64,000 bases of DNA from a virus. The DNA lies in the IMG/VR virus record IMGVR_UViG_3300028610_000426, positions 1-64,000 of that record; one strand, 5' to 3'. Positions 1 to 12,150 of this stretch are shown piece by piece; the stretch's first letter is position 1, and each line of letters begins with the position of its first letter. Below the pieces are notes generated by a model, which did no database searches, was not told the origin of the DNA, and saw nothing but the letters and a program-made list of their open reading frames with translations. Both the position numbers and the translations under genes were made by a program.

Positions 1-40
1 TACCATGAGTACGGTGGCCCTTTTTTATGGAGGTAGTGTC

Positions 41-217
41 ATGTTCAAGAAAAATAAGAATCCAGTATTCGAAGCCCGTGACCATCTGAAAGCGGCTATC
101 AAATGTATGAGACAAGTTGGAATGGATAAATGGGCCGCTAGAACTGAAAACATTTTACTTGACTTTGACAGACAAATAGTTAAACTTAAAAAGTATTCCG
201 GGATAGCTCAACGGTAG
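41..217 (+). CDS. Hypothetical protein, 58 aa, ending inside tRNA-Asn
   Basis: A short, basic and charged protein of unknown function. The ATG at 41 sits 8 bases behind a GGAGG site, which favours it over an upstream ATG at 5. The frame does not stop before the tRNA: it reads through the acceptor and D-stem of tRNA-Asn and ends at the TAG in the tRNA D-loop (215-217), so the last seven codons are tRNA sequence. RNase P cleavage at 197 would cut this message before its stop codon. No domain is recognised. Confidence 0.7.
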   Translation: MFKKNKNPVFEARDHLKAAIKCMRQVGMDKWAARTENILLDFDRQIVKLKKYSGIAQR

Positions 218-271
218 AGCCCCCGCCTGTTAAGCGGGTCGTTGTAGGTTCAAATCCTACTCCCGGAGCCA
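197..271 (+). tRNA. tRNA-Asn (GTT)
   Basis: Acceptor strands TCCGGGA and TCCCGGA pair, the D stem is GCTC/GAGC, the anticodon stem is CCCGC/GCGGG with loop CTGTTAA, and the T arm is GTAGG-TTCAAAT-CCTAC. The discriminator is G73 and CCA is encoded. The anticodon GTT reads AAC/AAT. The 5' third overlaps the coding region at 41-217. Confidence 0.96.
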
Positions 272-349
272 ATTTTGGGTGGAAGCCTTCGGGTCATGTG
301 GTGTTAGGGAAGAGCGGGAAGGCTCTGGGGATGAGACACTGCGGCATAT

Positions 350-423
350 AGACCTATGGTGTAAGGGTAGCACGGAAGGTTTTGGACCTTCTAGTTCTGG
401 TTCGACCCCAGATGGGTCTTCCA
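350..423 (+). tRNA. tRNA-Gln (TTG)
   Basis: Acceptor AGACCTA pairs with TGGGTCT, the anticodon stem is GAAGG/CCTTC with loop TTTTGGA, and the T arm is TCTGG-TTCGACC-CCAGA. CCA is encoded. The discriminator is T73, unlike the G73 usual in bacterial tRNA-Gln. The 78 bases between this gene and tRNA-Asn hold no gene, only a possible AGCCTTC/GAAGGCT stem. Confidence 0.93.
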
Positions 424-459
424 ATTTAACTCCACTCTGACGTGAAAGTGGAGTTAAAT
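424..459 (+). other. Perfect 13-bp hairpin directly after tRNA-Gln
   Basis: ATTTAACTCCACT (424-436) and AGTGGAGTTAAAT (447-459) form a perfect 13-bp stem with a 10-base loop, starting at the base after the tRNA CCA. There is no T-run after it, so a classical terminator is unlikely. An RNA-processing or 3'-end-protecting hairpin is possible. Similar hairpins lie near tRNAs at 12,223 and 15,426. Confidence 0.7.
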
Positions 460-480
460 TGAAATAAGTTATAACAAAGT

Positions 481-623
481 GGCCGTTTTGTGGTATAAAT
501 GAAGCCTGAGACTAAGGGAAGCGGCCAACGGCCCCACGTGAGTTTAGGTCGGTGACCCAATTAAGACCGATATTTGGATCACAATATGACCCATTTATTT
601 TGACGGCGGCATGGCCGCTTCCC
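481..623 (+). ncRNA. Candidate structured RNA or leader before the 642 gene
   Basis: This gene-free stretch contains GGGAAGCGGCC (516-526), which pairs perfectly with GGCCGCTTCCC (613-623), and GGCCGTT (481-487), which can pair with AACGGCC (527-533). The 3' arm ends 19 bases before the start of the downstream gene and 8 bases before its SD, so it could be a structured 5' leader. A separate RNA is equally possible. No known family is recognised. Confidence 0.45.
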
Positions 624-641
624 AGTCGCCAAGGAGATGTG

Positions 642-941
642 ATGAAAATACCGAAACATCTTGATATGGGATTGAACGAAACGTTTGCCAATCAGATTTA
701 TACCATTTTGGTTGAAGTCTGTGGAGCAAGGTCCAGCGAACGTTCCGCATTCGTTCATGAGATGGGAAGATTCGAACCAACCAACGAGTGGAGGTTCCAA
801 GGATGGTTGGGATTCGGCGGAAAATTCTGGCCGAAGGATTTTAGAGTGTCTGCTTACACAGAAGATATAGACGATGAAATGGCTGAAATCATCAAGGAAG
901 CGAACGAAAAATTAATAGAACTTTTAGACTTGACATCTTAA
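642..941 (+). CDS. Hypothetical protein, 99 aa
   Basis: The ATG at 642 lies six bases behind AAGGAG; an ATG at 552 in the same frame has no SD and falls inside the structured leader. The protein has an acidic C-terminal helix and a Trp/Gly-rich centre (WRFQGWLGFGGKFWP). I recognise no family. A sigma70-like promoter overlaps the 3' end of the gene and points towards tRNA-Cys. Confidence 0.75.
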   Translation: MKIPKHLDMGLNETFANQIYTILVEVCGARSSERSAFVHEMGRFEPTNEWRFQGWLGFGGKFWPKDFRVSAYTEDIDDEMAEIIKEANEKLIELLDLTS

Positions 942-957
942 GAAAAATAGTTATATT
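930..957 (+). promoter_or_regulatory. Sigma70-like promoter before tRNA-Cys and the RNA cluster
   Basis: TTGACA (930-935), a 16-base spacer and TATATT (952-957). The predicted start near 965 lies about 45 bases before tRNA-Cys and before the whole structured-RNA block. The same box pair recurs at 23,377, 23,576, 41,455, 47,208 and 49,695. Confidence 0.75.
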
Positions 958-1010
958 TGTATTGTAGCATTGATCTTTGAAAACTAAAGAGTAGTATGGA
1001 GTTCTGGCAA

Positions 1011-1084
1011 CACGGTGTAGCCAATCGGTTAGGCGCTGGATTGCAAATCCAGATAAGGGAGTTCAATTCTCCCCGCCGTGTCCA
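1011..1084 (+). tRNA. tRNA-Cys (GCA)
   Basis: Acceptor CACGGTG pairs with CGCCGTG with one wobble. The anticodon stem is CTGGA/TCCAG with loop TTGCAAA, and the T arm is GGGAG-TTCAATT-CTCCC. U73, the normal discriminator for tRNA-Cys, is followed by an encoded CCA. The ornate RNA region starts at the next base. Confidence 0.95.
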
Positions 1085-1085
1085 C

Positions 1086-1205
1086 CCTACCATGTAAAGA
1101 CCCCACTTCTTTGCTATCGTGGGCAGTACGCATAACGAGACGGCGTTTGAAGGGCTGTAGCAACCCGCTGGATTCCCACGGGAGGTCGGGTCTTTACATG
1201 GTAGG
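1086..1205 (+). ncRNA. Structured RNA domain A of the ornate RNA region
   Basis: CCTACCATGTAAAGACCC (1086-1103) pairs perfectly over 18 bp with 1188-1205 and encloses about 84 bases. There is no SD-led reading frame inside. The inner strand AAAGACCC can also pair with GGGTCTTT at 1281-1288 in domain B, suggesting an alternative fold or tertiary contact. It starts two bases after tRNA-Cys. Confidence 0.7.
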
Positions 1206-1221
1206 AATGGAAAGAATGTTA

Positions 1222-1604
1222 GGAAGCCAAGAACTGGTCGGTGACAGAATGCATCCCGCACAGGGTGTAATGTGGGCTGGTAGGGTCTTTGTAGGGAACT
1301 GCGGGGACTGCGCCGCCTTGGGTTATCCGGCCGCAAGCGAATCTCTGAAGAGTGTAACGCACAACGAACGGTCTCTCAAGTTCATCTCAAGGCTGGAGAC
1401 TTAGTAGTCTGGTCCCTTCGTAAACAGTCGATATGATATATCACTGGGTGTGCCGGGGGGTGCAAGTTTCGATCTTGCCAGTAGGGGTGCTTTAGTATGG
1501 GATGGCCATCCCGGAACAAGACCTTGAATCGTGGCGGAAAACACAAATCTAAGAAGAGCATGGGAACAATCCCAGAATGTTCCTCCGACCAGTTCTTGGT
1601 TTCC
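1222..1604 (+). ncRNA. Structured RNA domain B, closed by a 20-bp long-range stem
   Basis: Bases 1222-1241 and 1585-1604 pair over 20 bp with a single G-U wobble, closing a 343-base interior. Inside are local hairpins such as GGGATGGCCATCCC (1500-1513), TGGG/CCCA (1561-1574) and a T-arm-like GCAAG-TTTCGAT-CTTGC. Reading frames here lack SD sites and run across the stems. With the flanking domains it resembles the large ornate phage RNAs (GOLLD/ROOL type) in size and tRNA-adjacent position; this is inference from architecture, not sequence matching. Confidence 0.65.
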
Positions 1605-1617
1605 ATAAAAGTTATGG

Positions 1618-1852
1618 GGCTGGACAGAGCAATCAGTTTGAAGCTGATTGTCGAAAGTAGAAAACCGAGTGGTAAGGCCACCACAACGGAATGCTGGAGA
1701 GCGGAGCTATATGCCACCCACTGTCGGCCCAGCCAATTATGTTCCTGTACTAAGGATATATCGGGTCCACCGGAACCGTAAGGCACTTAGGGGTCTGCTA
1801 TCAAAGGCTATGCATGGCTGATGACAAGCTACCTTAGAGTCATACAGGAACA
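1618..1852 (+). ncRNA. Structured RNA domains C and D of the ornate RNA region
   Basis: GGCTGG (1618-1623) pairs with CCAGCC (1729-1734), enclosing a 7-bp hairpin CAATCAG/CTGATTG and a GTGG/CCAC hairpin. The next domain is closed by TGTTCCTGTA (1740-1749) with TACAGGAACA (1843-1852). It ends 10 bases before the initiator-like tRNA. With domains A and B the whole interval 1086-1852 is a run of closed RNA domains with no credible gene. Confidence 0.55.
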
Positions 1853-1861
1853 CCGTTTTAT

Positions 1862-1947
1862 AGCGGGATAGAGTAGTGGTCAAACTCACTGGGTTCATAT
1901 CCCAGCACCGAAAGGTAACGTCGGTTCAAATCCGACTCCCGCCACCA
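1862..1947 (+). tRNA. tRNA-Met (CAT), initiator-like, with enlarged variable arm
   Basis: Pairs 2-7 of the acceptor match but 1:72 is an A-C mismatch. The anticodon stem CTGGG/CCCAG carries three G-C pairs next to loop TTCATAT. The T arm GTCGG-TTCAAAT-CCGAC closely resembles bacterial fMet tRNA. These are initiator hallmarks. The variable region is 14 bases and can form ACC-GAAA-GGT, whereas Met tRNAs normally have about five bases. A73 and CCA are encoded. Confidence 0.88.
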
Positions 1948-1950
1948 AGT

Positions 1951-2072
1951 TTCAGAGTTGGTTTCTAACTGAGGGCAGGGTTAAGCCGGTTAGTGGGATA
2001 GCTTCCCACCTTATCTGAGTGCACCTTCTAGCCTAAAGAGACAGAAGGCCAGTGCTGGTAACCAACTTTGAA
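1951..2072 (+). ncRNA. Candidate structured RNA of about 122 nt
   Basis: TTCAGAGTTGGTT (1951-1963) pairs with AACCAACTTTGAA (2060-2072) over 13 bp with one wobble. Inside are GTGGGA/TCCCAC and CCTTCT/AGAAGG hairpins. It begins four bases after the tRNA-Met CCA. No reading frame with an SD is present and no known family is recognised. Confidence 0.6.
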
Positions 2073-2082
2073 TTTAATTTAT

Positions 2083-2211
2083 GTGGGAGTCATCCAAAAA
2101 GTGGGATACTGAGAGTAGGGACAGCAAATTACTGTCATGAAAGGAGTGTCTCTGGAATAGGAAGTAAGGGTTGGCCATTTTGCTAATGTGGGTTCGAACC
2201 CCACCTCCCAC
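2083..2211 (+). ncRNA. tRNA-like element with oversized centre, no CCA
   Basis: GTGGGAG (2083-2089) and CTCCCAC (2205-2211) form a perfect 7-bp acceptor-like stem. A canonical T arm (GTGGG-TTCGAAC-CCCAC, 2188-2204) and a 4-bp D-like arm (ATCC/GGAT, 2092-2107) are present. About 80 bases sit where an anticodon arm and variable loop should be, without a clear anticodon stem-loop. CCA is not encoded; CG and five Ts follow. It may be a tRNA-derived RNA, an intron-bearing tRNA, or a decayed gene. Confidence 0.6.
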
Positions 2212-2218
2212 CGTTTTT

Positions 2219-2377
2219 GAATCCATGTAGGCTCTCCAGCGGAGCAATACTATCCTACAATAAGGCGCTTTGTTGTAGGCCGTCCTAAACAATAGCAGGG
2301 GGTTGGAAGCTGGGCCTGTTAAAAAAGATGCTAACTTTTGCTTCCTTCAGTTTCGCTGGAGAAGCCTACATGGATTC
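2219..2377 (+). ncRNA. Candidate structured RNA closed by a 23-bp stem
   Basis: Bases 2219-2241 pair with 2354-2377 over 23 bp with one bulged A. Internal hairpins include CCTACAA/TTGTAGG and GGAAGC/GCTTCC. The long closed rod with an internal open region recalls 6S-type architecture, but I see no sequence basis for that name. It lies between the tRNA-like element and the tmRNA and contains no SD-led frame. Confidence 0.6.
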
Positions 2378-2390
2378 GGATTTACCTCAT

Positions 2391-2413
2391 GAATGTCTAT
2401 GCAGTAGACATTC
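2391..2413 (+). other. Perfect 9-bp hairpin before the tmRNA acceptor piece
   Basis: GAATGTCTA (2391-2399) and TAGACATTC (2405-2413) flank a five-base loop. It lies just before the acceptor half of the permuted tmRNA and may mark its 5' processing site. This placement is an inference. Confidence 0.5.
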
Positions 2414-2706
2414 AATCAATGTTGGTCGCCGTGGCTTCGGCCACAGAAGGTATACTGAAACGTTGTGGACCTGAGTTCGATTCTCAGCACCTCCACCCCT
2501 CTGTATCCTAGTGAGACGCTGACGCCTCATTAGCGGAGACTCAATAAGACTTCCGGGATATGGAGGGGTGGGGGTGAAATGGTTTCGACATGGCGGATGA
2601 GGTATGCTGGAAGACCCGTGGGTGGGCTGGCCCACGTTAATCAAGCCCACTCTTACAAGTGCCAACGCACCTGTAGAAATGGCCGCTTAGGTGGCTACGG
2701 GGTTGG
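2414..2706 (+). ncRNA. ssrA: Transfer-messenger RNA, circularly permuted (two-piece)
   Basis: tmRNA rescues ribosomes stalled on broken messages and tags the nascent peptide for proteolysis. The 3' acceptor half comes first: T arm CTGAG-TTCGATT-CTCAG (2471-2487), acceptor strand CACCTCC (2488-2494), A73 and C-rich end. After a 74-base intervening loop comes the 5' half: GGGGGTG (2570-2576), then GGTTTCGAC, the tmRNA D-loop signature. The two strands make a 7-bp acceptor stem with a G3-U70 wobble, the alanine identity pair. P2 forms from CATGGCG/CGTTGTG and GTATGC/GTATAC. An H-type pseudoknot (CGTGGG/CCCACG, TGGGCT/AGCCCA) precedes the resume codon. The tag frame stops in the loop of P5 (GCCGC-TTAG-GTGGC). 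The loop extends the acceptor helix by seven more pairs (ACCCCTC/GAGGGGT). Exact RNA ends are estimates. Confidence 0.93.
2661..2690 (+). other. tmRNA tag reading frame (ANAPVEMAA-stop)
   Basis: Nine sense codons from the GCC resume codon give A-N-A-P-V-E-M-A-A, followed by TAG at 2688-2690 within the P5 hairpin loop. The A-N start and A-A end match the pattern of bacterial ssrA degradation tags. The tag is short and has Met-Ala-Ala in place of the common Leu-Ala-Ala or Val-Ala-Ala. Confidence 0.9.
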
Positions 2707-2785
2707 GCCTCCTTCCTTATTATCCAATAGGAGGTGAAGTTTAGTCATGAAACATTATTATGCTCTTAACAAGGAGGAAAATATC

Positions 2786-3151
2786 ATGGAGCAAGTGAAG
2801 CAGTTGGTGGATGATGTTCTGGAAGAGAACACTGAATTAAAGGTGGTAGCTCTTGCAAACATTACGGAAGCTCTTGCAGAGACAGTTGAGGCTGTCACAG
2901 GATTTGGTGAGGTTTTGCCCCATCACGTCCGCAAGGCAATTGAACGGCCTTTGGGTCAGGTGAATTTTTTCATGAAAACGTATGAGAAAGCACGGGAAGA
3001 TGAAGTGCTTTCACCCCCAGAGGAAGAAGAATCCACGGAACCGACTGGGAGTGAAAATCTTCCCGGAGAGGGTAATGAGGAGGGTGGAAACCAGAACTCC
3101 AATCCTGATGATAAGGAGAGCGACCCTTCCTTACCAATGGGGGGAAACTAA
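2786..3151 (+). CDS. Hypothetical protein with acidic low-complexity tail, 121 aa
   Basis: The N-terminal 70 residues are predicted helical; the C-terminal 45 are rich in Glu, Pro, Gly, Asn and Asp and look disordered. ATG at 2786 follows AAGGAGG at an ideal distance. An in-frame ATG at 2747 also has GGAGG upstream but 12 bases away, so a 134-aa form is possible. It is the first coding gene after the tmRNA. No family is recognised. Confidence 0.75.
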   Translation: MEQVKQLVDDVLEENTELKVVALANITEALAETVEAVTGFGEVLPHHVRKAIERPLGQVNFFMKTYEKAREDEVLSPPEEEESTEPTGSENLPGEGNEEGGNQNSNPDDKESDPSLPMGGN

Positions 3152-3177
3152 ACCCCCTTTCATTAGGAGGTAGTATC

Positions 3178-3405
3178 ATGTCTGAAAAAGGTGCAACAGA
3201 CAAACAGCTTGCCAATGCCTATATCCTTACCAAGTTCAAGCATATCGAAGAGGGCTTCAGTGAAGAACTTCTTGCTGACTTGAACGGTGGCCGCCGTATG
3301 GCCGCCACCCGCAAGGAAAGGATTCGCCAACGAGTCGTTGACTGGTTGGATAAGAAAGGTAAGCCGTTGGGTGATTATCTTGTGAAGCAAGGTGTCACTC
3401 TGTAA
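3178..3405 (+). CDS. Hypothetical small basic protein, 75 aa
   Basis: ATG follows TAGGAGGTAG at good spacing. The protein is helical and rich in Arg/Lys in its middle (GGRRMAATRKERIRQR), which could bind nucleic acid. It lies 26 bases after the acidic-tail protein and is followed by a structured RNA. No family is recognised. Confidence 0.75.
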   Translation: MSEKGATDKQLANAYILTKFKHIEEGFSEELLADLNGGRRMAATRKERIRQRVVDWLDKKGKPLGDYLVKQGVTL

Positions 3406-3427
3406 AATGGGGCGTCTTTGGATGTCC

Positions 3428-3641
3428 CGTGATAGTGTGGAGCCATGGAGCGAATAAAAATGGCTTGCGGTGCTTGCTCTGCTTTCATCGCACATATTAA
3501 GAGCGCTCAGTGTTCCACCAAAATTAAATAAATTGGAGAGCTATCCCGGCCCAGAGCCGAAGTGCTGTCGGTGACCATACGGTAGACGGCAATTACTTAA
3601 ATAGGCGATGCTCCCCGGTGAGAATCCGGCACACTATCACG
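3428..3641 (+). ncRNA. Candidate structured RNA of about 214 nt before tRNA-Tyr
   Basis: CGTGATAGTGTG (3428-3439) and CACACTATCACG (3630-3641) pair perfectly over 12 bp. Inside are CCGG/CCGG, GCTGTC/GACGGC and other local hairpins. The closing stem ends nine bases before tRNA-Tyr. No SD-led frame is present, so this 245-base interval is best explained as RNA. Its family is unknown. Confidence 0.6.
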
Positions 3642-3650
3642 AACTTTTAT

Positions 3651-3741
3651 GGAGAGGTGGCAGAGTTTGGTTGATTGCGCCAGACTGTAAATCTGGTCCC
3701 ACTGGGTAAACACGGAGGTTCAAATCCTCCCCTCTCCACCA
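3651..3741 (+). tRNA. tRNA-Tyr (GTA)
   Basis: GGAGAGG pairs with CCTCTCC. The anticodon stem is CCAGA/TCTGG with loop CTGTAAA. A long variable arm typical of bacterial tRNA-Tyr is present (CCCACTGGG core), and the T arm is GGAGG-TTCAAAT-CCTCC. A73 and CCA are encoded. Confidence 0.96.
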
Positions 3742-3791
3742 CCATTCATTTACGTACTGTAACGAAAAGTGGTACTTTAGGAGAACGGTTC

Positions 3792-3995
3792 ATGCAAGAA
3801 GAGGTTAACATAATTCAGGGGGATAACCCCACTACATCAGAATTGGTTATTCATTGTTTAACCTGTGTGTTGGATTTTCAGTCTACTGCGGAAGCAGTTC
3901 AGCACATCAGGATGCATCAAAAAAGGGGGGATATCGTTCCCCCGGAAACAGCCGCCTTTTTTGAGGCGCAAGGACACTTTGAATTTATGAGATAA
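3792..3995 (+). CDS. Hypothetical C2H2-like small protein, 67 aa
   Basis: Start ATG 3792 is preceded by AGGAGAACGG. Residues HCLTC, followed about 15 residues later by HIRMH, make a C2H2-like zinc-finger arrangement. It fits between tRNA-Tyr and tRNA-Glu, stopping one base before the latter. Function is unknown. Confidence 0.7.
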   Translation: MQEEVNIIQGDNPTTSELVIHCLTCVLDFQSTAEAVQHIRMHQKRGDIVPPETAAFFEAQGHFEFMR

Positions 3996-3996
3996 T

Positions 3997-4072
3997 GGCC
4001 GCATCAGCTAACGGTTAGGCTATCAGGTTTTCACCCTGACAATCGTGGGTTCGATTCCCCGTGCGGTCACCA
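3997..4072 (+). tRNA. tRNA-Glu (TTC)
   Basis: GGCCGCA pairs with TGCGGTC with one wobble. The anticodon stem is TCAGG/CCTGA with loop TTTTCAC, and the T arm is GTGGG-TTCGATT-CCCCG. A73 and CCA are encoded. Confidence 0.94.
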
Positions 4073-4090
4073 ACTTTAAAAGGAGCAGTC

Positions 4091-4180
4091 ATGAAATGTC
4101 CGGCTTGTGGTTATCATGCAGTATGGTATAATAGTGATTACGAACGCCACGAATGTAATGACTGTGGTTGGCATAATTAA
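4091..4180 (+). CDS. Zinc-ribbon micro-protein, 29 aa
   Basis: ATG 4091 follows AAAAGGAG. The 29-residue product has CPAC near its start and CNDC near its end, making a minimal four-cysteine zinc ribbon. It ends directly before tRNA-Leu. Function is unknown; small ribbons of this kind recur through the window. Confidence 0.65.
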   Translation: MKCPACGYHAVWYNSDYERHECNDCGWHN

Positions 4181-4256
4181 GCGGGTGTGGCCGAACGGCA
4201 TAGGCGCTGGTCTTAGGAACCAGATTTTGTAGGTTCGACTCCTACCACCCGTACCA
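4181..4256 (+). tRNA. tRNA-Leu (TAG), short variable loop
   Basis: GCGGGTG pairs with CACCCGT. The anticodon stem is CTGGT/ACCAG with loop CTTAGGA, and the T arm is GTAGG-TTCGACT-CCTAC. A73 and CCA are encoded. The variable region is five bases (ATTTT), not the long arm expected in bacterial tRNA-Leu. Confidence 0.92.
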
Positions 4257-4275
4257 TTTTAAAAAGGAGGTTCAT

Positions 4276-4896
4276 GTGAAGTACGTATCGTTGGATATTG
4301 AGACTACCGGGCTTGACACGAAGTTGCATTCAGTTCTTTCCATCGGGGCCGTAATCGATGACCTTCAAAAGCCAGAGATTCCAGTGGAAGACCTTCCCCG
4401 AATACACATCCTTATACATTATGAGGAAATCACAGGAAGCCCAACGGCATTGGCTATGAACGCCGATCTCATCAAGCGTATTGAGAGACTGTCCAGATGG
4501 CATAACGAAGGTAGACTGGATGATTACCTTGAGGATTTTGAACAGTTCGTGAAAAGTCCTAAACAAGCTGGGGAAAACCTGAAGCAGTGGTTGGCTATAA
4601 ATCTACGACTTCCCTTGCCAGTGACGAACCCTAACCCCATTCCGATTATAGGAAAGAATGTGGGAACATTTGATGTTCCGTTTTTGGTCAATCAGTGTAA
4701 CGTTTCCCGGAGCACGTGGCATAGACGTGTCATGGACCCCACGACTCTCTGGATAGAGCCCACGGATGAAGTACCGCCGTCTCTGTTAGATTGTATGAAG
4801 AGAGCGGAGATTAAAGCTGGGACAATCCATGACGCCATTGAAGATGCGTGGAATACCATCCGGGTATTCCGGGCGGGACTGGCAAGGTTGAAGTAA
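4276..4896 (+). CDS. DEDDh-type 3'-5' exonuclease (DnaQ superfamily), 206 aa
   Basis: The protein should be a two-metal exonuclease acting on DNA or RNA ends. Motif I is at the N-terminus (LDIETTG, Asp7/Glu9), motif II is near residue 130 (NVGTFDVPFL), and motif III is HDAIEDAW with His and Asp spaced as in the DEDDh subgroup. It resembles the oligoribonuclease/DnaQ family, but the substrate cannot be set from sequence. Translation starts at GTG 4276 behind AAAGGAGG. The stop overlaps the next ATG by one base. Confidence 0.85.
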   Translation: MKYVSLDIETTGLDTKLHSVLSIGAVIDDLQKPEIPVEDLPRIHILIHYEEITGSPTALAMNADLIKRIERLSRWHNEGRLDDYLEDFEQFVKSPKQAGENLKQWLAINLRLPLPVTNPNPIPIIGKNVGTFDVPFLVNQCNVSRSTWHRRVMDPTTLWIEPTDEVPPSLLDCMKRAEIKAGTIHDAIEDAWNTIRVFRAGLARLK

Positions 4897-5222
4897 TGGG
4901 TATAGAAATTTGGAATGATAATTGGGATGTTGGCCGTGTTCGTGGATGTATTGAGACCCGGACATATAGGAATGGTAACAGGGATGACCTGATGGACACT
5001 TATCTGGATGGGACGGTGATTACTCCACACGGATACGTAGAGGTCATGGCCTATACTTACCCAAATTTCTCAGTGACCCGATTGGACTTTATCTGGAAAG
5101 GCCGGATGTATTCCCGGTCATTTCGGAGTAAGAGATACAGCAAGAGGTATTGCGTGACCCTTGCGAAAAAATTTGCGGAAGATGTTGTAGAAGGTAGCAT
5201 CCATGGGGATAATGGGCCTTGA
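4896..5222 (+). CDS. Hypothetical protein, 108 aa, ending inside tRNA-Ser
   Basis: Starts at ATG 4896 within the stop codon of the exonuclease gene, indicating coupled translation. The product is rich in Tyr, Arg and Trp. The last 11 codons lie within tRNA-Ser (from 5189), so tRNA processing would remove the stop codon. An earlier end is not available in this frame. No family is recognised. Confidence 0.65.
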   Translation: MGIEIWNDNWDVGRVRGCIETRTYRNGNRDDLMDTYLDGTVITPHGYVEVMAYTYPNFSVTRLDFIWKGRMYSRSFRSKRYSKRYCVTLAKKFAEDVVEGSIHGDNGP

Positions 5223-5272
5223 AAGCCTTGCCGGGGTTACACCCGAAGGTTCGATTCCTTTACCTTCTTCCA
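5189..5272 (+). tRNA. tRNA-Ser (TGA)
   Basis: AGAAGGT pairs with ACCTTCT. The anticodon loop is CTTGAAA in an imperfect stem (one T-T mismatch at the base). The long variable arm CGGG/CCCG supports serine, and the T arm is GAAGG-TTCGATT-CCTTT. CCA is encoded; discriminator T73 is unusual for serine. The 5' 34 bases are also coding sequence. Confidence 0.87.
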
Positions 5273-5295
5273 CCTTTAACTGGAGGTAGTTTGAA

Positions 5296-5751
5296 ATGAA
5301 GAAATTGATGGTGTGGGTATTATTATTGGTTATGGTGATGTTTACAAGTCCAGCGATTGCTGGAGAAATCGATTTGAACTGGGCAGAAGTTACAACAAAT
5401 TGTAACGAAACCCTTATCGGTGATTTGGCTGGTTATATTGTGTGGTGGGGAGTATCACCCCGGCCACCAATGTCATCACCAGTGCAAATGCCAACAGGTG
5501 AAACTGGAGGGTGTGATTATTCTGGATATACTGTCTGGCAATATGATAACTTTGTTGCGCCAGTGGGGACCGGAGCCACGTATACATTGACCGTTCCAGA
5601 ATCTGAAGTGGAAACGTATTATTATGTTGCGGTGACGGCTATTGATACTTATGGAAACCAATCCATATATTCTCCAGAACTTTTTGTCGCCATCCCTCCT
5701 ACGATGGTTCCCCCGTCAAACCCGGCGTCTCTAACGGGTGTGGTTCGATAG
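5296..5751 (+). CDS. Secreted fibronectin-III-like protein, 151 aa
   Basis: An N-terminal signal peptide (charged MKK, hydrophobic core, cleavage near AIA-GE) is followed by a beta-rich module ending YYYVAVTAIDTYGNQS, the classic end of a fibronectin type III domain. It should be exported and may act at the cell surface. ATG follows TGGAGGTAG. After the stop, the -1 frame continues open with a hydrophobic segment and a basic tail, so the true C-terminus may be reached by frameshift or may have been lost. Confidence 0.8.
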   Translation: MKKLMVWVLLLVMVMFTSPAIAGEIDLNWAEVTTNCNETLIGDLAGYIVWWGVSPRPPMSSPVQMPTGETGGCDYSGYTVWQYDNFVAPVGTGATYTLTVPESEVETYYYVAVTAIDTYGNQSIYSPELFVAIPPTMVPPSNPASLTGVVR

Positions 5752-5834
5752 GCTGGTTCGGGTATGTAGTCGGAGCGGGGGGTTTACCGGTATTCCGGCG
5801 CAAAAAGAAAGGAAAGGAAAATGCCGTACATTGA
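5751..5834 (+). other. Out-of-frame C-terminal anchor-like tail after the 5296 gene
   Basis: In the -1 frame relative to the upstream gene, the sequence is open from about 5700 to TGA 5832-5834. It reads NGCGSIGWFGYVVGAGGLPV, then FRRKKKGKE. This Gly/Cys patch, short hydrophobic stretch and Arg/Lys cluster is how C-terminal sorting or anchor tails look. It has no start codon of its own and overlaps the next gene start. Confidence 0.45.
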
Positions 5835-6111
5835 GCCTCAACTTCGGATCAAGATTGATGAAACGATAGATGAGCTTGCCCGTCTTATCAACGGTCCCGG
5901 TCTTCTGAATTATGCTATGACCCGGCTCTGGCATAGACTTCTCAAGGACGGTTCTGTCAGATATACACATCTCCGGAACATTATCGGAGATGTGGTTATG
6001 GCCATGTTGGAACTTTATCGGATGGTGGCCGCTCCGTATGAAGACCAGAAAGGCACGGAAAACGGCTTTATTGGTCTATTGGATGATGAGCATGGTAACT
6101 TTACTGGGTAA
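5821..6111 (+). CDS. Conserved phage protein, 96 aa (DUF6899-like)
   Basis: The pattern MPYIEP, ID..I..L...I, GLLNYAMTRL and ELYRMVAAPYEDQK is one I associate with a small phage family often listed as DUF6899; this is recall, not a search. The protein is helical and of unknown function. ATG follows AAAGGAAAGG. It overlaps the next gene by 20 bases. Confidence 0.8.
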   Translation: MPYIEPQLRIKIDETIDELARLINGPGLLNYAMTRLWHRLLKDGSVRYTHLRNIIGDVVMAMLELYRMVAAPYEDQKGTENGFIGLLDDEHGNFTG

Positions 6112-6310
6112 TAATATTTGTACACAATGCAGGGGACCAATAGGGAACGAAAGGCATTGGTATAGTATTATTGAGCGCTATCTTGTTGAAGAGCGTGATC
6201 CTCTTCCAGTATTTTGCTCTGAGTCTTGCATCCACAAATGGTGTCTGCTTCGGATACCAGATTTTTTAACATGGTTGGAGGTAAGAGAGACGGGGGTGGT
6301 GTTGAGTTGA
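6092..6310 (+). CDS. Zinc-finger small protein, 72 aa
   Basis: CTQC near residue 12 and CSESC near residue 45 form a treble-clef-like four-cysteine set, followed by hydrophobic and Trp-rich sequence. ATG 6092 is the best start because the frame upstream has no SD. The stop TGA overlaps the TTG start of the next gene. Function is unknown. Confidence 0.6.
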   Translation: MVTLLGNNICTQCRGPIGNERHWYSIIERYLVEERDPLPVFCSESCIHKWCLLRIPDFLTWLEVRETGVVLS

Positions 6311-6450
6311 AACATCTGATATACACCTGTGTACATTGTGAGAAAGAGGTAGTCACCCCCGAACCAGTAATTTCACTTCGGGGTGGCGAAGGATGGGAAT
6401 GTCCTGCATGTGGAGGAATTACTATCGTTCAGTTGAACCCGATGAGGTGA
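6307..6450 (+). CDS. Zinc-ribbon small protein, 47 aa
   Basis: CVHC and CPACGG are spaced as a classic zinc ribbon. The likely start is TTG 6307, which overlaps the preceding TGA as TTGA; the in-frame ATG codons upstream lack an SD. Function is unknown. Confidence 0.55.
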   Translation: MKHLIYTCVHCEKEVVTPEPVISLRGGEGWECPACGGITIVQLNPMR

Positions 6451-6453
6451 ATC

Positions 6454-6645
6454 ATGATGGATGATAAAATGGAATATGAGGGAATGATAGCAGAGATGAA
6501 TGCCGGGAAGGTGTTGAGACCACGCACATATGCGGATGAGGCTTGGAATCAAGCCATTGAACGTTCAGTGGGCATTGTTAAACGGTACGAAAAAGGAACC
6601 GGTTTGTTCCAACAGAAAACGGAGGCCCCCGATGGGGATGTATGA
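6454..6645 (+). CDS. Hypothetical protein, 63 aa
   Basis: ATG follows GAGGTG. The product is predicted helical and charged, with no recognised domain. Its 3' end overlaps the next gene by 14 bases. Confidence 0.65.
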   Translation: MMDDKMEYEGMIAEMNAGKVLRPRTYADEAWNQAIERSVGIVKRYEKGTGLFQQKTEAPDGDV

Positions 6646-6940
6646 CAACATACTGGTAGAAGAGGGTGTACCTCTTCCAGAGTTTCCGAAAGATGCACAA
6701 CGAACTTTCCAGACGAAAAGTTTGGATAATCTCCTGACTTTACATCGGATAACCAAGTCCGGACGACTCATGGAAAAGATAGCATGTTCAATTGGATTTA
6801 AGTGGCATGACACTGAATATCATGGTATTATTCGATTTTATACCAATCATGATGTTAAATGGTATGAATACGCCGCCAGATTCACTGATGGTCAATTGGT
6901 GTGTATGGATAAATTGGTTCTTCAAGATTGTGCTTATTGA
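6632..6940 (+). CDS. Hypothetical protein, 102 aa
   Basis: ATG 6632 lies behind ACGGAGG, and the product begins MGMYDNIL, a start often seen in small phage proteins. The remainder is mixed alpha/beta with several aromatic residues. The stop directly abuts tRNA-Ser. No family is assigned. Confidence 0.75.
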   Translation: MGMYDNILVEEGVPLPEFPKDAQRTFQTKSLDNLLTLHRITKSGRLMEKIACSIGFKWHDTEYHGIIRFYTNHDVKWYEYAARFTDGQLVCMDKLVLQDCAY

Positions 6941-7028
6941 GGAAGGGTGGCTGAGTGGTCTAAAGCACTAGGTTGCTAACTTAGAGAGGGTAACACCTCC
7001 GTGGGTCCGAATCCCACTCCTTCCTCCA
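6941..7028 (+). tRNA. tRNA-Ser (GCT)
   Basis: GGAAGGG pairs with TCCTTCC. The anticodon stem is CTAGG/CTTAG with loop TTGCTAA, and the long variable arm is GAGG/CCTC. The T arm is GTGGG-TCCGAAT-CCCAC, with C instead of T in the usual TTC motif. T73 and CCA are encoded. Confidence 0.93.
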
Positions 7029-7033
7029 GTTTT

Positions 7034-7109
7034 GCGCCTATAGCCTAATGGAAAAGGCGGGAGGTTTCTACCCTTCTAAATCGGGGTTCGAATCCCTGTA
7101 GGCGCTCCA
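7034..7109 (+). tRNA. tRNA-Arg (TCT)
   Basis: GCGCCTA pairs with TAGGCGC. The anticodon loop is TTTCTAC in stem GGAGG/CCTTC, and the T arm is GGGG-TTCGAAT-CCCT. T73 and CCA are encoded. It reads AGA/AGG, codons used in several genes here and in the minigene at 23,465. Confidence 0.94.
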
Positions 7110-7110
7110 T

Positions 7111-7186
7111 TGGCCCGTAGCTCAACCGGGGGAGCGTCCCGCTCATAACGGGAAGGGAGTAGGTTCAAGTCCTACCGGGCCAACCA
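7111..7186 (+). tRNA. tRNA with CAT anticodon (elongator Met or Ile2)
   Basis: TGGCCCG pairs with CGGGCCA. The anticodon stem is TCCCG/CGGGA with loop CTCATAA, and the T arm is GTAGG-TTCAAGT-CCTAC. A73 and CCA are encoded. Whether C34 is modified to lysidine, which would make it an AUA-reading Ile tRNA, cannot be seen from DNA. Confidence 0.92.
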
Positions 7187-7193
7187 AAAATTA

Positions 7194-7303
7194 TGCGGAG
7201 TACCGTTCCCTTCGCCTTCAGCATTCCGGATGTAACTGAGGGTGACCATTAAACGGAAGGGTGGTGAAGTCGAGAGGTTCGATTCCTCCGGGATGCCGCA
7301 CCA
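7194..7303 (+). ncRNA. tRNA-like element ending in CCA, abnormal core
   Basis: A T-arm-like hairpin (GAGG-TTCGATT-CCTC) is followed by a strand that pairs over nine bases (GCATTCCGG 7221-7229 with CCGGGATGC 7288-7296). TGCGG (7194-7198) can pair with CCGCA (7296-7300), directly before CCA. About 22 bases are inserted on the 5' side, and CTTCGCC there can pair with GGTGAAG in the core. No anticodon arm is evident. It sits between two ordinary tRNAs. Confidence 0.5.
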
Positions 7304-7306
7304 TAA

Positions 7307-7378
7307 GGGTTGTAGGTCATGGTGACCAAACGGCCTCCAAAGCCGTAGGAGAGGGTTCGATTCCTTCACTTCCCGCCA
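7307..7378 (+). tRNA. tRNA-Trp (CCA), mismatched acceptor stem
   Basis: The anticodon stem ACGGC/GCCGT with loop CTCCAAA, the T arm GAGGG-TTCGATT-CCTTC, G73 and an encoded CCA are all canonical. The acceptor strands GGGTTGT and ACTTCCC leave two adjacent T-T mismatches (positions 4 and 5). It may be a functional but weakened tRNA, or one needing repair or editing. Confidence 0.82.
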
Positions 7379-7394
7379 GATATAAGGAGGCAGA

Positions 7395-7589
7395 ATGAAA
7401 AAGTTCGGTGGGCTTCTTTACAATATTTATTATGGCAGACCTAAGATCAGTATTTGTAATTGTGATTGTAAACGTTGTAGAGACACTGGGGTTAAATATA
7501 TGCCTTCAGATAGTACCTTTGAATTTTGTGATTATTGCGATAAAGGACCGTTGATTAAAAGAGTTATAAAGGAGACACGCAATGCCTAA
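7395..7589 (+). CDS. Cysteine-rich zinc-binding protein, 64 aa
   Basis: Cys pairs (CNCDCKRC and CDYC) resemble a DnaJ-type or rubredoxin-like zinc site. ATG follows AAGGAGG. The 3' end overlaps the next gene by eight bases. Function is unknown. Confidence 0.75.
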   Translation: MKKFGGLLYNIYYGRPKISICNCDCKRCRDTGVKYMPSDSTFEFCDYCDKGPLIKRVIKETRNA

Positions 7590-7731
7590 CTGTACTTCAT
7601 GTGGTCAACCGATTCCAGAGGGTCAGGGTAGTTCCTGTTCCATGTGTTACGGAGATGTAGCGCATGGAACAGATGGATATTATCAGGATTATATGGATAG
7701 GTGCCGGGAACAGGAACAGGAACAGGAGTGA
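7582..7731 (+). CDS. Zinc-ribbon small protein, 49 aa
   Basis: CTSC and CSMC make a four-cysteine ribbon, followed by an acidic tail of repeated Glu-Gln. ATG 7582 follows AAAGGAGACACGC. Function is unknown. Confidence 0.65.
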   Translation: MPNCTSCGQPIPEGQGSSCSMCYGDVAHGTDGYYQDYMDRCREQEQEQE

Positions 7732-7735
7732 GATA

Positions 7736-8104
7736 TTGGGTTGTCAGTATTGTGGAGCTAAAATAATAATTAAAGATGGGACATTTCTTGGGTTTACAAA
7801 ACTCAGAGTGCCTGTGTTAACCGCTGTTTGTACAAAGGGGCATAAGTTACAAATACAGTTACAAGTAATAAACAATATGAGAATGATTAAAGCTGAATCA
7901 TTCCCACCAAAACATGGGGAGTGGTTTAAAAACAAAACATTATTTCTTGGGTGTCCTATTTGTTTAAAGTTAATATCTATTGGTGATACTCATTTGATTG
8001 ATAATAAGGGTAAAGTTACGCCCAGTATAATCTGTCCTCATGGGTGTGGCTGGCACACATTTATAACTTTAGATGGGTATGAGATAACAGAGAGTGAAAA
8101 ATGA
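7736..8104 (+). CDS. Double zinc-ribbon protein, 122 aa
   Basis: CQYCGA near the start and CPICLK plus CPHGCGW later suggest two zinc modules. The best start is TTG 7736, seven bases after AGGAG; the longer frame upstream overlaps the preceding gene without an SD. Stop and next start overlap as ATGA. Function is unknown. Confidence 0.65.
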   Translation: MGCQYCGAKIIIKDGTFLGFTKLRVPVLTAVCTKGHKLQIQLQVINNMRMIKAESFPPKHGEWFKNKTLFLGCPICLKLISIGDTHLIDNKGKVTPSIICPHGCGWHTFITLDGYEITESEK

Positions 8105-8478
8105 GATTCAATGAGGCTGTCCAAGAGTTCAATGACTGGATGATAACCATTCCAAAGAAGGTAAATTGGGATGAGTATATTCAGGAACTGGAAGACGCTC
8201 ATGCCAACGGGGATGTTGCCAACTTCCGTGTTGCGAATTTCCCGAAGAAAATGCGGCCGGGGGATAAGTGTTATATCGTTCATGATGGAGAGATGAAGGG
8301 ATGGACAGAGGTCAAGGCTATGAAACATTGGCCAGAAGGTTTTGAATGTTCTTCTACTGGACAGGAGTGGCCGCCGGGGAAATATATTCAACGATCCTGT
8401 GAATTCCATGCGATTGATTCTCCACCGAAAATAACTGGGTTTCAAGGAGTCAGGAGAAAAACTGATGGGATGGGGTAA
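8101..8478 (+). CDS. PUA/ASCH-like domain protein, 125 aa
   Basis: The segment from about residue 50 (GDKCYIVHDGEMKGW, then WPPGKYIQR and a C-terminal F-x-G strand) has the layout of ASCH/PUA-like RNA-binding folds found in phage proteins. The assignment is by pattern only. The start overlaps the previous stop (ATGA). Confidence 0.65.
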   Translation: MRFNEAVQEFNDWMITIPKKVNWDEYIQELEDAHANGDVANFRVANFPKKMRPGDKCYIVHDGEMKGWTEVKAMKHWPEGFECSSTGQEWPPGKYIQRSCEFHAIDSPPKITGFQGVRRKTDGMG

Positions 8479-8881
8479 TTGTGGGATCGATTCACAGGGC
8501 AGGATGATTGGTTACAGCTTTACAGCTATCTGTGACCACCCTGACTGTGAAAAGGTGATAGATAGGGGTCTAGCCTACGTCTGCGGAGATATGCACGGAG
8601 AGGACATCTATTCGTGTGAGAAGTATTACTGTGATGATCACAGGAGGGTTTACGTAGAAGATAACGAGTCTGATATTTGTTATCTGGTATGTGATGACTG
8701 TGAAGAGGGATTCAAGGATGTACATTCCGGGATGGAGTGGGATGATATGGAGGGGTGTTGGCGGCCAGAAGGAAGCAAATCATGTGGTTGTAAAGAAGAC
8801 TGTCCCATGGAATGTAAAGGGGAATGCGGCTGTAAGAATTGTAGAAGGAAGTGGGCAATGTTTCAGGCTACCAGAGGATAA
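8465..8881 (+). CDS. Cysteine-rich protein, 138 aa
   Basis: About 20 cysteines in pairs (CDHPDC, CDDC, CGCKEDC, CKGECGCKNC) indicate several zinc sites. The C-terminal CxC-rich block resembles the end of the 18,809 protein (CAGECGCKSC), so the two may be paralogues. Function is unknown. Confidence 0.75.
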   Translation: MGWGNCGIDSQGRMIGYSFTAICDHPDCEKVIDRGLAYVCGDMHGEDIYSCEKYYCDDHRRVYVEDNESDICYLVCDDCEEGFKDVHSGMEWDDMEGCWRPEGSKSCGCKEDCPMECKGECGCKNCRRKWAMFQATRG

Positions 8882-8890
8882 GGAGTTATC

Positions 8891-9346
8891 ATGACATTAA
8901 CAACAGACCCGAATGATCCACGGTTGAAAAAAGGTGTGGGTTCTGAAGAAGGTGGACAAGACGAAGTTCATTTGGTCTTATCCAAAAAAGAAAGAGCCAA
9001 GGGTTTTATTCGCCCTTTGCGTCATTCATATATTCATTCTGGAAAACAACCAAAATATTCTCTTCGTGATCTTGATGAGGATGAATTGGAACGACACAAA
9101 GGATGTGGGTATGTTAAATATGAAGAATACCCTGAAAGTGAATCCCCGATTTGTGGAAGGTTCTGGACACAAAAAGGCTTGGATAAGATGAATGGATGTG
9201 GTACTATAACAAAAATGACCTCAGAACTTGCCGAAACTCATGCAAGAGACCCTAAATTTTATGGGGGCACTTATTGTGTGGGGTGTCAAGAATATTTATC
9301 AGTAGAAGAATTTAAGTGGCTGGATGGTGAAGGGATGGGAACATAA
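8891..9346 (+). CDS. Conserved phage protein with zinc motif, 151 aa
   Basis: The features FIRPLRHSYIH, GCGTITKMTSELAETHARDP and FYGGTYCVGCQEYLSVEEFKW form a pattern I recognise from many uncharacterised phage proteins, with cysteines probably binding zinc. ATG follows AAGGAG. Function is unknown. Confidence 0.8.
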   Translation: MTLTTDPNDPRLKKGVGSEEGGQDEVHLVLSKKERAKGFIRPLRHSYIHSGKQPKYSLRDLDEDELERHKGCGYVKYEEYPESESPICGRFWTQKGLDKMNGCGTITKMTSELAETHARDPKFYGGTYCVGCQEYLSVEEFKWLDGEGMGT

Positions 9347-9347
9347 T

Positions 9348-9593
9348 ATGAACAAATCATGTGAATGTTGTGAAAAGGTATTAGGGCTTTGGTATCGTCA
9401 GGAATTAAATGTGTGGTTATGTTATCGATGTTTTATGATAACTCGTGTTGCTCCTATAACATATAAGGATTTATTGTGGGCTATCGATCAACTTCATACT
9501 CACCCAATGATGGAAAACAGTTATAATATTCCACGGGATCATGTGATTGTTGATAAAGATGAGTTTTTTAAAGTGAAATATCATGGGCGGTAG
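9348..9593 (+). CDS. Zinc-finger small protein, 81 aa
   Basis: CECC and CYRC form a four-cysteine site in the first third. ATG 9348 lies just after the previous stop; the longer form from 9324 lacks an SD. Function is unknown. Confidence 0.65.
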   Translation: MNKSCECCEKVLGLWYRQELNVWLCYRCFMITRVAPITYKDLLWAIDQLHTHPMMENSYNIPRDHVIVDKDEFFKVKYHGR

Positions 9594-9595
9594 AA

Positions 9596-9874
9596 ATGAT
9601 TAACTTTATACAAATGGATGAAGACACTCAAGTAACTTTCATTCTTTTGGAAGAGGATGGGGTTTTTGCGGCACAGGGTCTTCAGAGAGATATTGTCGGA
9701 CAAGGTGATACTCCTGAAGAAGCCTTTGAAGATTTTTCGAAAACATATGATGCTGAGATGAGGTTATTGGGAAGAGAACGTTTTTTGAAAATCCCCCCTG
9801 CTCCGGAGTATTATCAAAATTTGGCAAAGAAGGGGGTTGGGTTTGAGTGTATTCATAAAATTGATGAGAGATGA
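9596..9874 (+). CDS. HicB-like antitoxin-fold protein, 92 aa
   Basis: Residues 10-55 (VTFILLEEDGVFAAQGLQ, then GQGDTPEEAFEDFSK) follow the HicB partial RNase H fold: two strands with a charged turn, then a helix starting T-P-E-E-A. No HicA toxin gene is adjacent, so a stand-alone role is likely. The name is a fold-level guess. Confidence 0.65.
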   Translation: MINFIQMDEDTQVTFILLEEDGVFAAQGLQRDIVGQGDTPEEAFEDFSKTYDAEMRLLGRERFLKIPPAPEYYQNLAKKGVGFECIHKIDER

Positions 9875-9904
9875 TTTATTCGGTGGATATGTTATAATAT
9901 ATAT

Positions 9905-9978
9905 GGGGGTATAGCTTAGTGGCAAAGCAGTGGGCTTTTAACCCTCTGACTGGAGTTCGATTCTCTGTGCCCCTACCA
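9905..9978 (+). tRNA. tRNA-Lys (TTT)
   Basis: GGGGGTA pairs with TGCCCCT with wobbles. The anticodon loop is CTTTTAA in stem GTGGG/CCCTC with one T-T mismatch, and the T arm is TGGAG-TTCGATT-CTCTG. A73 and CCA are encoded. Confidence 0.9.
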
Positions 9979-9997
9979 AATAATATCGGAGGTTTTG

Positions 9998-10147
9998 ATG
10001 ACCTTATTAGAGGCGGCAGAATCATTAAGCGACATCCTTCATGAAATTGAGGCTTCTGGGGTTGAATTAACTAAGAGCCAAGACTTGAGATGGTTTGATG
10101 CTTCGATGGTTATCAATACTGCCCATGCTACGAAAAACACAGTTTAG
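9998..10147 (+). CDS. Hypothetical protein, 49 aa
   Basis: ATG 9998 follows CGGAGG at good spacing. The small acidic product (MTLLEAAESLSDILHEIE) is predicted helical. Its stop TAG shares its G with the first base of tRNA-Gly. No family is known. Confidence 0.6.
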   Translation: MTLLEAAESLSDILHEIEASGVELTKSQDLRWFDASMVINTAHATKNTV

Positions 10148-10222
10148 CGGGTATGGCCAAGCGGCTAAGGCGAGAGGCTTCCACCCTCTTATGCGAGAGT
10201 TCGAATCTCTCTATCCGCTCCA
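10147..10222 (+). tRNA. tRNA-Gly (TCC)
   Basis: GCGGGTA pairs with TATCCGC. The anticodon stem is AGAGG/CCTCT with loop CTTCCAC, and the T arm is GAGAG-TTCGAAT-CTCTC. T73 and CCA are encoded. Confidence 0.95.
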
Positions 10223-10235
10223 TTTTTTATACAGC

Positions 10236-10275
10236 CATACAAGAATTTGTATTGATGTATACAAGTTCTTGTATG
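10236..10275 (+). repeat. Inverted repeat between tRNA-Gly and tRNA-Arg
   Basis: CATACAAGAA (10236-10245) and TTCTTGTATG (10266-10275) are perfect inverse copies, with further TATACAA copies inside and after. It could fold as a hairpin in the tRNA precursor or act as a protein-binding site. No T-run follows. Confidence 0.55.
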
Positions 10276-10286
10276 AAAATATACAA

Positions 10287-10363
10287 GCCTCCGTTGCGTA
10301 ATGGAGAACGCATCTGGCTACGAACCAGACGGAATGCAAGTTCGAATCTTGCCGGGGGCTCCA
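10287..10363 (+). tRNA. tRNA-Arg (ACG)
   Basis: GCCTCCG pairs with CGGGGGC with one wobble. The anticodon stem is TCTGG/CCAGA with loop CTACGAA, and the T arm is GCAAG-TTCGAAT-CTTGC. T73 and CCA are encoded. A34 would need deamination to inosine by the host TadA. Confidence 0.94.
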
Positions 10364-10381
10364 TTTTTGAAAGGATATGTT

Positions 10382-10963
10382 ATGATAGGTAGACTAATAA
10401 TGTTCGGAGTTTTAGGGGTTATGGTTTGGAAGGTTCCCATCATTCTGGCCATAGTGGTTCTGTTTTTCCTTGGGGTGAATCTTGCTCACGGTAAGTCTGA
10501 GTGGCCCAAGGATTATTACCGGAAATCAAAAGCACCCGTTACATGGAAGCAGAAAATTAATCCGTGGTGGTGGATGCTTAACGATGATGACCCTGTGTAC
10601 GCCATTCCCGCCGATGGAACGCCAGTAAAAAATGACTGGTTCCATCCGACGTGGCCCCAGTGGTTTCGAAAAATTGCGTGGGGATGGAGGAACCCAACCT
10701 GTAATCTTGACAGGTACGTCCTTGGGTTCTGGGACAAACGGGATTGGTGGACAAGGGAACGAGGAGATAACCGGGGCTGGACAGGAGAGGATTGGAACGG
10801 GAAGGATACCATGTGGCCTCTACCCGGAGAACGGTGGGCTATCGCTCTTCCATTCATCAGTTTTCAAACCGCAAGGAACAAGAAGGGAAAGTATTGGGAG
10901 TTCTATCTGGGATGGAAACCGAACAGTGAATTTGCGTTAGGGTGCTTCAGGAGAAAGGGATAA
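10382..10963 (+). CDS. Membrane-anchored conserved phage protein, 193 aa
   Basis: One or two N-terminal hydrophobic segments (residues 5-35) precede a soluble part rich in Trp, Pro and Arg (NPWWWMLNDDDP, FRKIAWGWRNPTCN, CFRRKG). I have seen this architecture in uncharacterised phage proteins (DUF7338-like, uncertain). ATG 10382 follows AAAGGATATG. It likely sits in the inner membrane. Its stop overlaps the next ATG. Confidence 0.75.
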   Translation: MIGRLIMFGVLGVMVWKVPIILAIVVLFFLGVNLAHGKSEWPKDYYRKSKAPVTWKQKINPWWWMLNDDDPVYAIPADGTPVKNDWFHPTWPQWFRKIAWGWRNPTCNLDRYVLGFWDKRDWWTRERGDNRGWTGEDWNGKDTMWPLPGERWAIALPFISFQTARNKKGKYWEFYLGWKPNSEFALGCFRRKG

Positions 10964-11127
10964 TGTCTAAACAAAAAATAATAGAAATGGAGGAAGTTCT
11001 TAGGGAGATTATTAATCGTCCTCAATGGTTGGGACAGTTGATAGCCGCTAAGTATTTAAGAGGGGAAGATTGGAAAAGTCATTCTGAGGAAATACAATTG
11101 AAAAACAAACCATTGGAGAAATCATAA
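10963..11127 (+). CDS. Hypothetical protein, 54 aa
   Basis: Small charged helical protein whose ATG 10963 overlaps the previous TAA, with AGGAGAAAGG upstream. It ends at the first base of the dCMP deaminase gene. Function is unknown. Confidence 0.7.
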   Translation: MSKQKIIEMEEVLREIINRPQWLGQLIAAKYLRGEDWKSHSEEIQLKNKPLEKS

Positions 11128-11732
11128 TGCATACAGTAGTTTATGGACCGGGACCAGATGGAGATTATGGTGCTAAACGGGCAGAACGGGCACGGCTGAA
11201 GCAAGTACGGTGGGATGGGTATTTCCTGCGTGTGGCCGATGCTGTGGGTAGTAATTCCCAGTGTCTCTCCCGGAAAATTGGAGCAGTGCTGACCCGTGAC
11301 AAGTCCATTGTTTCAACTGGGTATAATGGTCCCCCAGTCGGAGTTCCAGTTTGTTCGGAACGGTATCATATTGACCCCATGGTTGAAAATAAGGTCTGTG
11401 AGATGGACTACGGTCCTGATCCAGATGATCTAATATGTCCCAGATACTTCTTTGGTTTCAAGTCCGGGGAAGGTCTTGAATACTGTGTAGCCGGACATGC
11501 TGAAAGAAATTCACTTATTCAAGCGGCTAAAAATGGTAGCGCAACTTTAGATACCACGATGTATATAAATTGCCCGGTTCCCTGTAAGGATTGTTTGATT
11601 GAGATCATCAACGCAGGGGTATCGGAGGTTGTCTGCACCACGATGGATTATTATGATGAAGCGTCCAAGTATTTGATCACGAATAGTGACTTGGCCGTCA
11701 GAACTTTCGAAAAGGAGGTAATGGAGGGGTGA
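11127..11732 (+). CDS. dCMP deaminase, 201 aa
   Basis: Deaminates dCMP to dUMP, feeding the ThyX thymidylate synthase encoded at 43,731. The zinc site is HAERN (His124, Glu126) and PCKDC (Cys153, Cys156), the standard cytidine/deoxycytidylate deaminase signature. An insertion with extra cysteines between residues 75 and 105 resembles the additional zinc region of T4-type enzymes. The length fits phage dCMP deaminases. ATG follows ATTGGAGAAATC. Confidence 0.92.
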   Translation: MHTVVYGPGPDGDYGAKRAERARLKQVRWDGYFLRVADAVGSNSQCLSRKIGAVLTRDKSIVSTGYNGPPVGVPVCSERYHIDPMVENKVCEMDYGPDPDDLICPRYFFGFKSGEGLEYCVAGHAERNSLIQAAKNGSATLDTTMYINCPVPCKDCLIEIINAGVSEVVCTTMDYYDEASKYLITNSDLAVRTFEKEVMEG

Positions 11733-11768
11733 TATTACCCTATTTAGACATTTCATTACCCCATTAAT

Positions 11769-11843
11769 GGTGGCCGTAACTCAATGGTAGAGTGTCCGGC
11801 TGTGACCCGGATGATTCCAGTTCAACTCTGGACGGTTACCCCA
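11769..11843 (+). tRNA. tRNA-His (GTG)
   Basis: GTGGCCG (11770-11776) pairs with CGGTTAC. A genomic G lies at position -1 (11769), opposite C73, the tRNA-His identity pair. The anticodon stem is TCCGG/CCGGA with loop CTGTGAC, and the T arm is TCCAG-TTCAACT-CTGGA. CCA is encoded. Confidence 0.95.
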
Positions 11844-11846
11844 ATT

Positions 11847-11921: not shown

Positions 11922-11992
11922 AAATATAATGTCGCTTTTATAGGACATAAGCTATAGAATAGTTGCTTAATGCACAATAAAAGTATCATTAT

Positions 11993-12070: not shown

Positions 12071-12073
12071 TAA

Positions 12074-12149: not shown

Positions 12150-12150
12150 C

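Follow-up and report, generated by a model that had tools for sequence, protein, structure and literature searches.

The locus and its setting

The DNA analysed here (64,000 nucleotides, hereafter the window) comes from a linear IMG/VR contig of 83.1 kb that is possibly a fragment. It holds a circularly permuted tmRNA gene (tmRNA*), called by ARAGORN over the 64-kb window at 2406-2781 (+; all parts of the gene given below lie on this strand) with the tag ANAPVEMAA*, the 3' tRNA domain (2460-2497) being encoded ahead of the 5' tRNA domain (2570-2596) with an intervening segment between them. A covariance search of both strands of the 64 kb against Rfam, a check that the initial annotation had proposed for 2380-2720, matched RF04321 (tmRNA_permuted) at 2439-2690 in the permuted order, aligned from the first to the last model position with 83.9 bits (gathering score 47; E 1.4e-14). 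Because this E value holds over the entire window and both strands, chance is excluded as the source of the match. The gene has some non-consensus P2 pairs relative to this model, and extra bases in the intervening segment. Among the older subtype models the best match is to RF01850 (beta_tmRNA), at 2408-2747 over the full model (positions 1-331, including P2, the PK1 region and the 3' stem); the gene lacks the terminator hairpin at the 3' end and, with 73.5 bits, lies under the gathering score of 84, so that it resembles beta_tmRNA but is not filed as a member. The folding energy of the precursor strand beats that of 100 of 100 shuffles (z -4.4). The ARAGORN call and the end-to-end RF04321 match together establish that the gene is real, in permuted order and at this place. 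The phage carries a circularly permuted tmRNA gene beside a large tRNA set, and its tag is the one that had initially been read from the sequence. From the form of the gene, the mature RNA would consist of two pieces.

The contig carries genes for a T4-type DNA polymerase, a clamp loader, a single-strand binding protein, a phage primase, a ribonucleotide reductase and an NAD-dependent ligase, a content by which the source is a T4-like virus of bacteria. Since the record is a linear IMG/VR contig of this size that may be a fragment, one could suppose that it is a stray bacterial contig and its tmRNA an ordinary bacterial ssrA; the T4-type replication genes, and a polymerase whose best matches are cyanophage enzymes (33-34% identity; top match Kyanoviridae), largely refute this, and we regard it as exceedingly improbable. 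A near-DNA search of phage records with 24 kb of the window found no relatives. In viral contigs the DNA polymerase has one relative (31% identity), which is without a permuted tmRNA, and the single-strand binding protein has none. No SmpB gene was found in the record, and host SmpB would therefore be needed.

The tRNA set that had been noted alongside the gene comprises 24 ARAGORN-called tRNAs in the window; together they serve all 20 amino acids, and each of them encodes CCA. The cluster lies within 1-18300. Small ORFs are interspersed in it, including a predicted deaminase (11127-11732) and an AAA_33 kinase-like protein (13381-13896). The tRNA-Met(CAU) at 1862-1947 (+) resembles an initiator in its A1-C72 mismatch and in the GGG/CCC of its anticodon stem, but its variable region is 14 nt long and could fold into a short stem. 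At 5176-5275 (+) lies a possible tRNA-Ser(UGA) with a long variable arm and an odd acceptor, which received no default ARAGORN call and matches the tRNA-Sec model weakly (31.4 bits, below the cut-off of 47). Three tandem structured stretches (+) stand upstream of the tmRNA: the first (1951-2074) has a 13-bp closing stem; the second (2083-2213) is tRNA-like, its acceptor and its T arm both perfect (GTGGGAG...GTGGGTTCGAACCCCACCTCCCAC), with about 100 unexplained bases in between and without CCA; and the third (2219-2379) is a 160-nt RNA closed by a stem of more than 20 bp. This region folds with z -5.1; Rfam returned nothing convincing on 1940-2400, nor were convincing phage relatives of these stretches found. 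We presume that the stretches (1951-2379) may be like the stable RNAs of the T4 tRNA cluster.

Parts of the gene

The 3' (acceptor) half, delimited at 2450-2497 by ARAGORN, RF04321, the pairs listed here and comparison of tails, comprises the 3' strands of P2 (2450-2455 and 2461-2467, pairing with 2602-2607 and 2589-2595; 6 + 7 bp), a fully paired T arm (2471-2487), the acceptor 3' strand (2488-2494), A73 (2495) and C74-C75 (2496-2497). The base after C75 is again a C, and CCA is therefore not fully encoded. Just upstream of this half, the sequence can form a hairpin (GUGGC-UUCG-GCCAC, 2431-2444), with which the acceptor piece may begin. The 5' half (2570-2607) contains the acceptor 5' strand (2570-2576), the D-loop region (AAAUGGUUUCGAC) and the P2 5' strands (2589-2595, 2602-2607). 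Its first seven bases pair with 2488-2494 in a 7-bp acceptor stem that contains the G3-U70 wobble of alanine identity (G2572-U2492), and P2 (7 + 6 bp between the halves) takes the place of the anticodon arm; the order of the halves, the bounding positions (2471, 2495 and 2570), the seven-base pairing and the wobble all agree with the initial annotation.

Between A73 and the 5' half lie 74 nt, of which the 72 nt that follow the encoded ACC (2498-2569) form the intervening segment, putatively excised. The acceptor stem was at first described as extended by seven pairs into this loop; we found 15 consecutive pairs (2495-2509 with 2555-2569), a perfect extension that includes A73-C75.

Downstream of the 5' half, a candidate PK1-like H-type pseudoknot (2617-2649; stems 2617-2622/2631-2636 and 2623-2627/2645-2649) precedes the resume codon. 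Its 6 + 5 complementary bases are placed as in RF04321 and RF01850, in a region that aligns poorly among relatives. The tag frame (2661-2690; GCC AAC GCA CCT GTA GAA ATG GCC GCT TAG, codons 2661-2687 and stop 2688-2690) was obtained from ARAGORN and by alignment; it is open, ends in a hydrophobic residue followed by Ala-Ala, and aligns with viral relatives at both the resume codon and the stop. Its UAG stands in the loop of P5, a 5-bp hairpin (2680-2697; 2680-2684/2693-2697) for which 82% of the letter-bearing alignment cells are paired, in few sequences. A terminal stem (CCUCCU/AGGAGG, 2708-2734; 2708-2713/2729-2734) corresponds to the 3' stem of RF01850. In the window all of the proposed helices pair in full, among them P2, the PK1-like element and P5, which had been recognized originally.

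The 3' strand of the terminal stem may double as a Shine-Dalgarno-like stretch ahead of an ORF at 2747. Its AGGAGG (from 2729) is separated by 12 nt from the ATG at 2747; as an in-frame ATG at 2786 has a better-placed AAGGAGG ahead of it, the ORF may begin at either.

When the two mature pieces were folded as separate strands, the acceptor and P2 helices formed. The dimer energy gain was no better than that of a shuffled acceptor piece (-12.9 vs -10.8, sd 3.5 kcal/mol), and energy alone is therefore no proof of pairing; covariation does better. In an alignment of 29 viral permuted tmRNAs, pairing of the acceptor and of the T arm is essentially invariable. P2a pairs in 93% of cells, and each of its seven pairs shows changes on both sides (covariation score 0.224, vs 0.101 shuffled and at most 0.088 with slid partners); the alignment is poor at P2b, PK1 and the terminal stem. 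Covariation in these sequences thus supports the tRNA-like domain and P2.

Relatives and their frequency

Scanning viral contigs for the permuted order gave at least 120 contigs (57 with a narrower pattern), and ARAGORN, applied to 160 loci fetched, called 151 tmRNA genes, 150 of them permuted (one being the window itself); many of the loci are near-identical, so that independent genes number fewer than 150. The window gene shares with such genes in IMG/VR phages (for example, L148, L138 and L004) the gene order, the G3-U70 pair (present in all 132 parsed relatives as well as the window), a conserved TTCGAC region, P2, an intervening segment that extends the acceptor (72 nt in the window, 56-84 nt in relatives), the resume codon and the hydrophobic-Ala-Ala end of the tag. 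It differs from them in sequence (40-48% identity), in its RF04321 score (83.9 bits vs 116-148 in the six relatives scored) and in its tail, which is ACCC where 122 of the 132 parsed relatives encode ACCA; it is likewise unlike the tRNAs of the window, 24 of 24 of which encode CCA. In 127 of the 132, pairing halts after the A73 pair, mostly at a C74 mismatch that the window gene lacks, and the extension then resumes; an uninterrupted extension was seen elsewhere only in L004 and L146 among the matches listed. The extension as such was rejected as a special feature, most relatives pairing 12-14 of the 15 positions there. The relatives' tags, as called by ARAGORN, mostly start with AND, end with LAA and have 10 or 14 residues, whereas that of the window has nine and ends in MAA, an ending found in three others among the matches listed (L048, L082 and L121). 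The exact 5'-half pattern had no matches in viral contigs, and two patterns, both strict, had none in bacterial genome contigs, which says little about bacterial permuted tmRNAs generally. Comparison of the tmRNA region with phage records gave just short matches, mostly to tRNA-Ala.

A sequence this divergent from its viral relatives, in a kind of gene that often serves as an integration site, could have been captured from a host, or be what is left of an attachment site, and have no function. We consider this very unlikely, given that the gene is full length with all helices intact, that it sits inside the phage tRNA cluster and not at a junction, and that no tyrosine integrase was found in the 83-kb record.

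The initial annotation had held a permuted viral copy beside a full tRNA set to be uncommon. We took 15 viral contigs of more than 68 kb that match the permuted pattern (of those also run through ARAGORN, only L028 received no tmRNA call): ten also hold large numbers of tRNA matches (22, 24, 24, 25, 25, 26, 27, 29, 33 and 48), three hold 5-9 tRNAs and two hold none. In L148, 15 tRNAs and the permuted tmRNA lie inside 14 kb. A 2022 study (PMC9004378) reported, from public genomes, 402 phages with tmRNA, 53 of 133 unique structures being two-piece, and described the two-piece tmRNA of phage Melnitz, which is permuted like the window gene and alphaproteobacterial in type; a 2025 study (PMC11915505), the source of the RF04321 model, listed 79 tmRNA sequences from phages; and huge phages with tmRNAs and SmpB have been described (PMC7162821). 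Given the pattern count, the ten tRNA-rich contigs of 15 and the counts of PMC9004378, the claim of rarity is unsupported: permuted tmRNA genes prove to be common in viruses, beside large tRNA sets as well. The window gene is therefore a divergent but ordinary member of an already described class, to which it adds a divergent example; its low score, 9-residue MAA tag, ACCC and absent C74 mismatch are minor variations. The wider point is that permuted tmRNAs are widespread in viral contigs, often with near-complete tRNA sets.

Proposed function

The gene very probably encodes a functional phage tmRNA of the permuted form, one that would be processed to two pieces and carry out trans-translation with host SmpB during infection. 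The RF04321 match, the open tag frame called by ARAGORN, the paired helices, the covariation, G3-U70 and the setting in a tRNA cluster of a T4-like phage argue for this function; against it stand the RF01850 score below the cut-off, the CCA that is not encoded and the dimer gain, no better than with a shuffled acceptor piece. Beyond the observed gene form, helices, tag frame and conservation, we infer from established tmRNA biology a course of transcription, cutting, charging and tagging, and a benefit to the phage. The tmRNA would be transcribed together with the tRNA cluster and fold as a precursor whose acceptor stem continues into the intervening segment, which host tRNA-processing enzymes would remove. 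Because CCA is not fully encoded, the 3' end would be trimmed to ACC and then completed to CCA by A addition, and the two pieces would be held together by the acceptor stem and P2. Alanyl-tRNA synthetase would charge the tmRNA via G3-U70; with host SmpB it would then enter stalled ribosomes and add (A)ANAPVEMAA, a tag that is similar at its Met-Ala-Ala end to a ClpXP-type degradation signal. The phage would probably benefit because ribosomes that stall on broken messages while it infects the cell would be rescued.

The same tag, in departing from the usual AND...LAA (nine residues, ANAPVE followed by MAA), could instead speak for a decoy or inhibitor, that is, a phage RNA that draws SmpB or ribosomes away from host tmRNA and marks stalled products with a tag poorly handled by host adaptors, so that host trans-translation is dampened. 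The tag-less form of phage DS6A inhibits endogenous tmRNA in E. coli (PMC11915505); that form is without the frame, whereas the window gene keeps a complete open tag frame with its stop, P5, the PK1-like element and G3-U70, and we hold a decoy role to be unlikely. Of a similarly low probability, in our judgement, is an elaboration of the functional reading in which the unbroken 22-bp precursor stem, with its ACCC and without the C74 mismatch, would be matured by another route, one that might begin with RNase III and end with trimming and A addition. In this reading the unusual tag would steer products away from the host's usual adaptor, so that the phage would run a trans-translation variant of its own.

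Isolated Pseudomonas aeruginosa phages (Samunavirus) offer a culturable system for tests of cutting and tagging. SM1 (KU245542), PA_L9 (PP869205) and UF_RH6 (OQ383211) carry a permuted tmRNA (L163-L165) that is not annotated as such in their records; it is permuted and beta-type, the window gene being permuted and resembling that type. It scores 116-119 bits with RF04321 and differs from the window gene in its tag (ANDTSFDVRLAA) and in the greater length of the gene. A search for an SmpB gene in SM1 found none. The phages PaMx31 and FBPa45 match too, and a permuted tmRNA there is a candidate.
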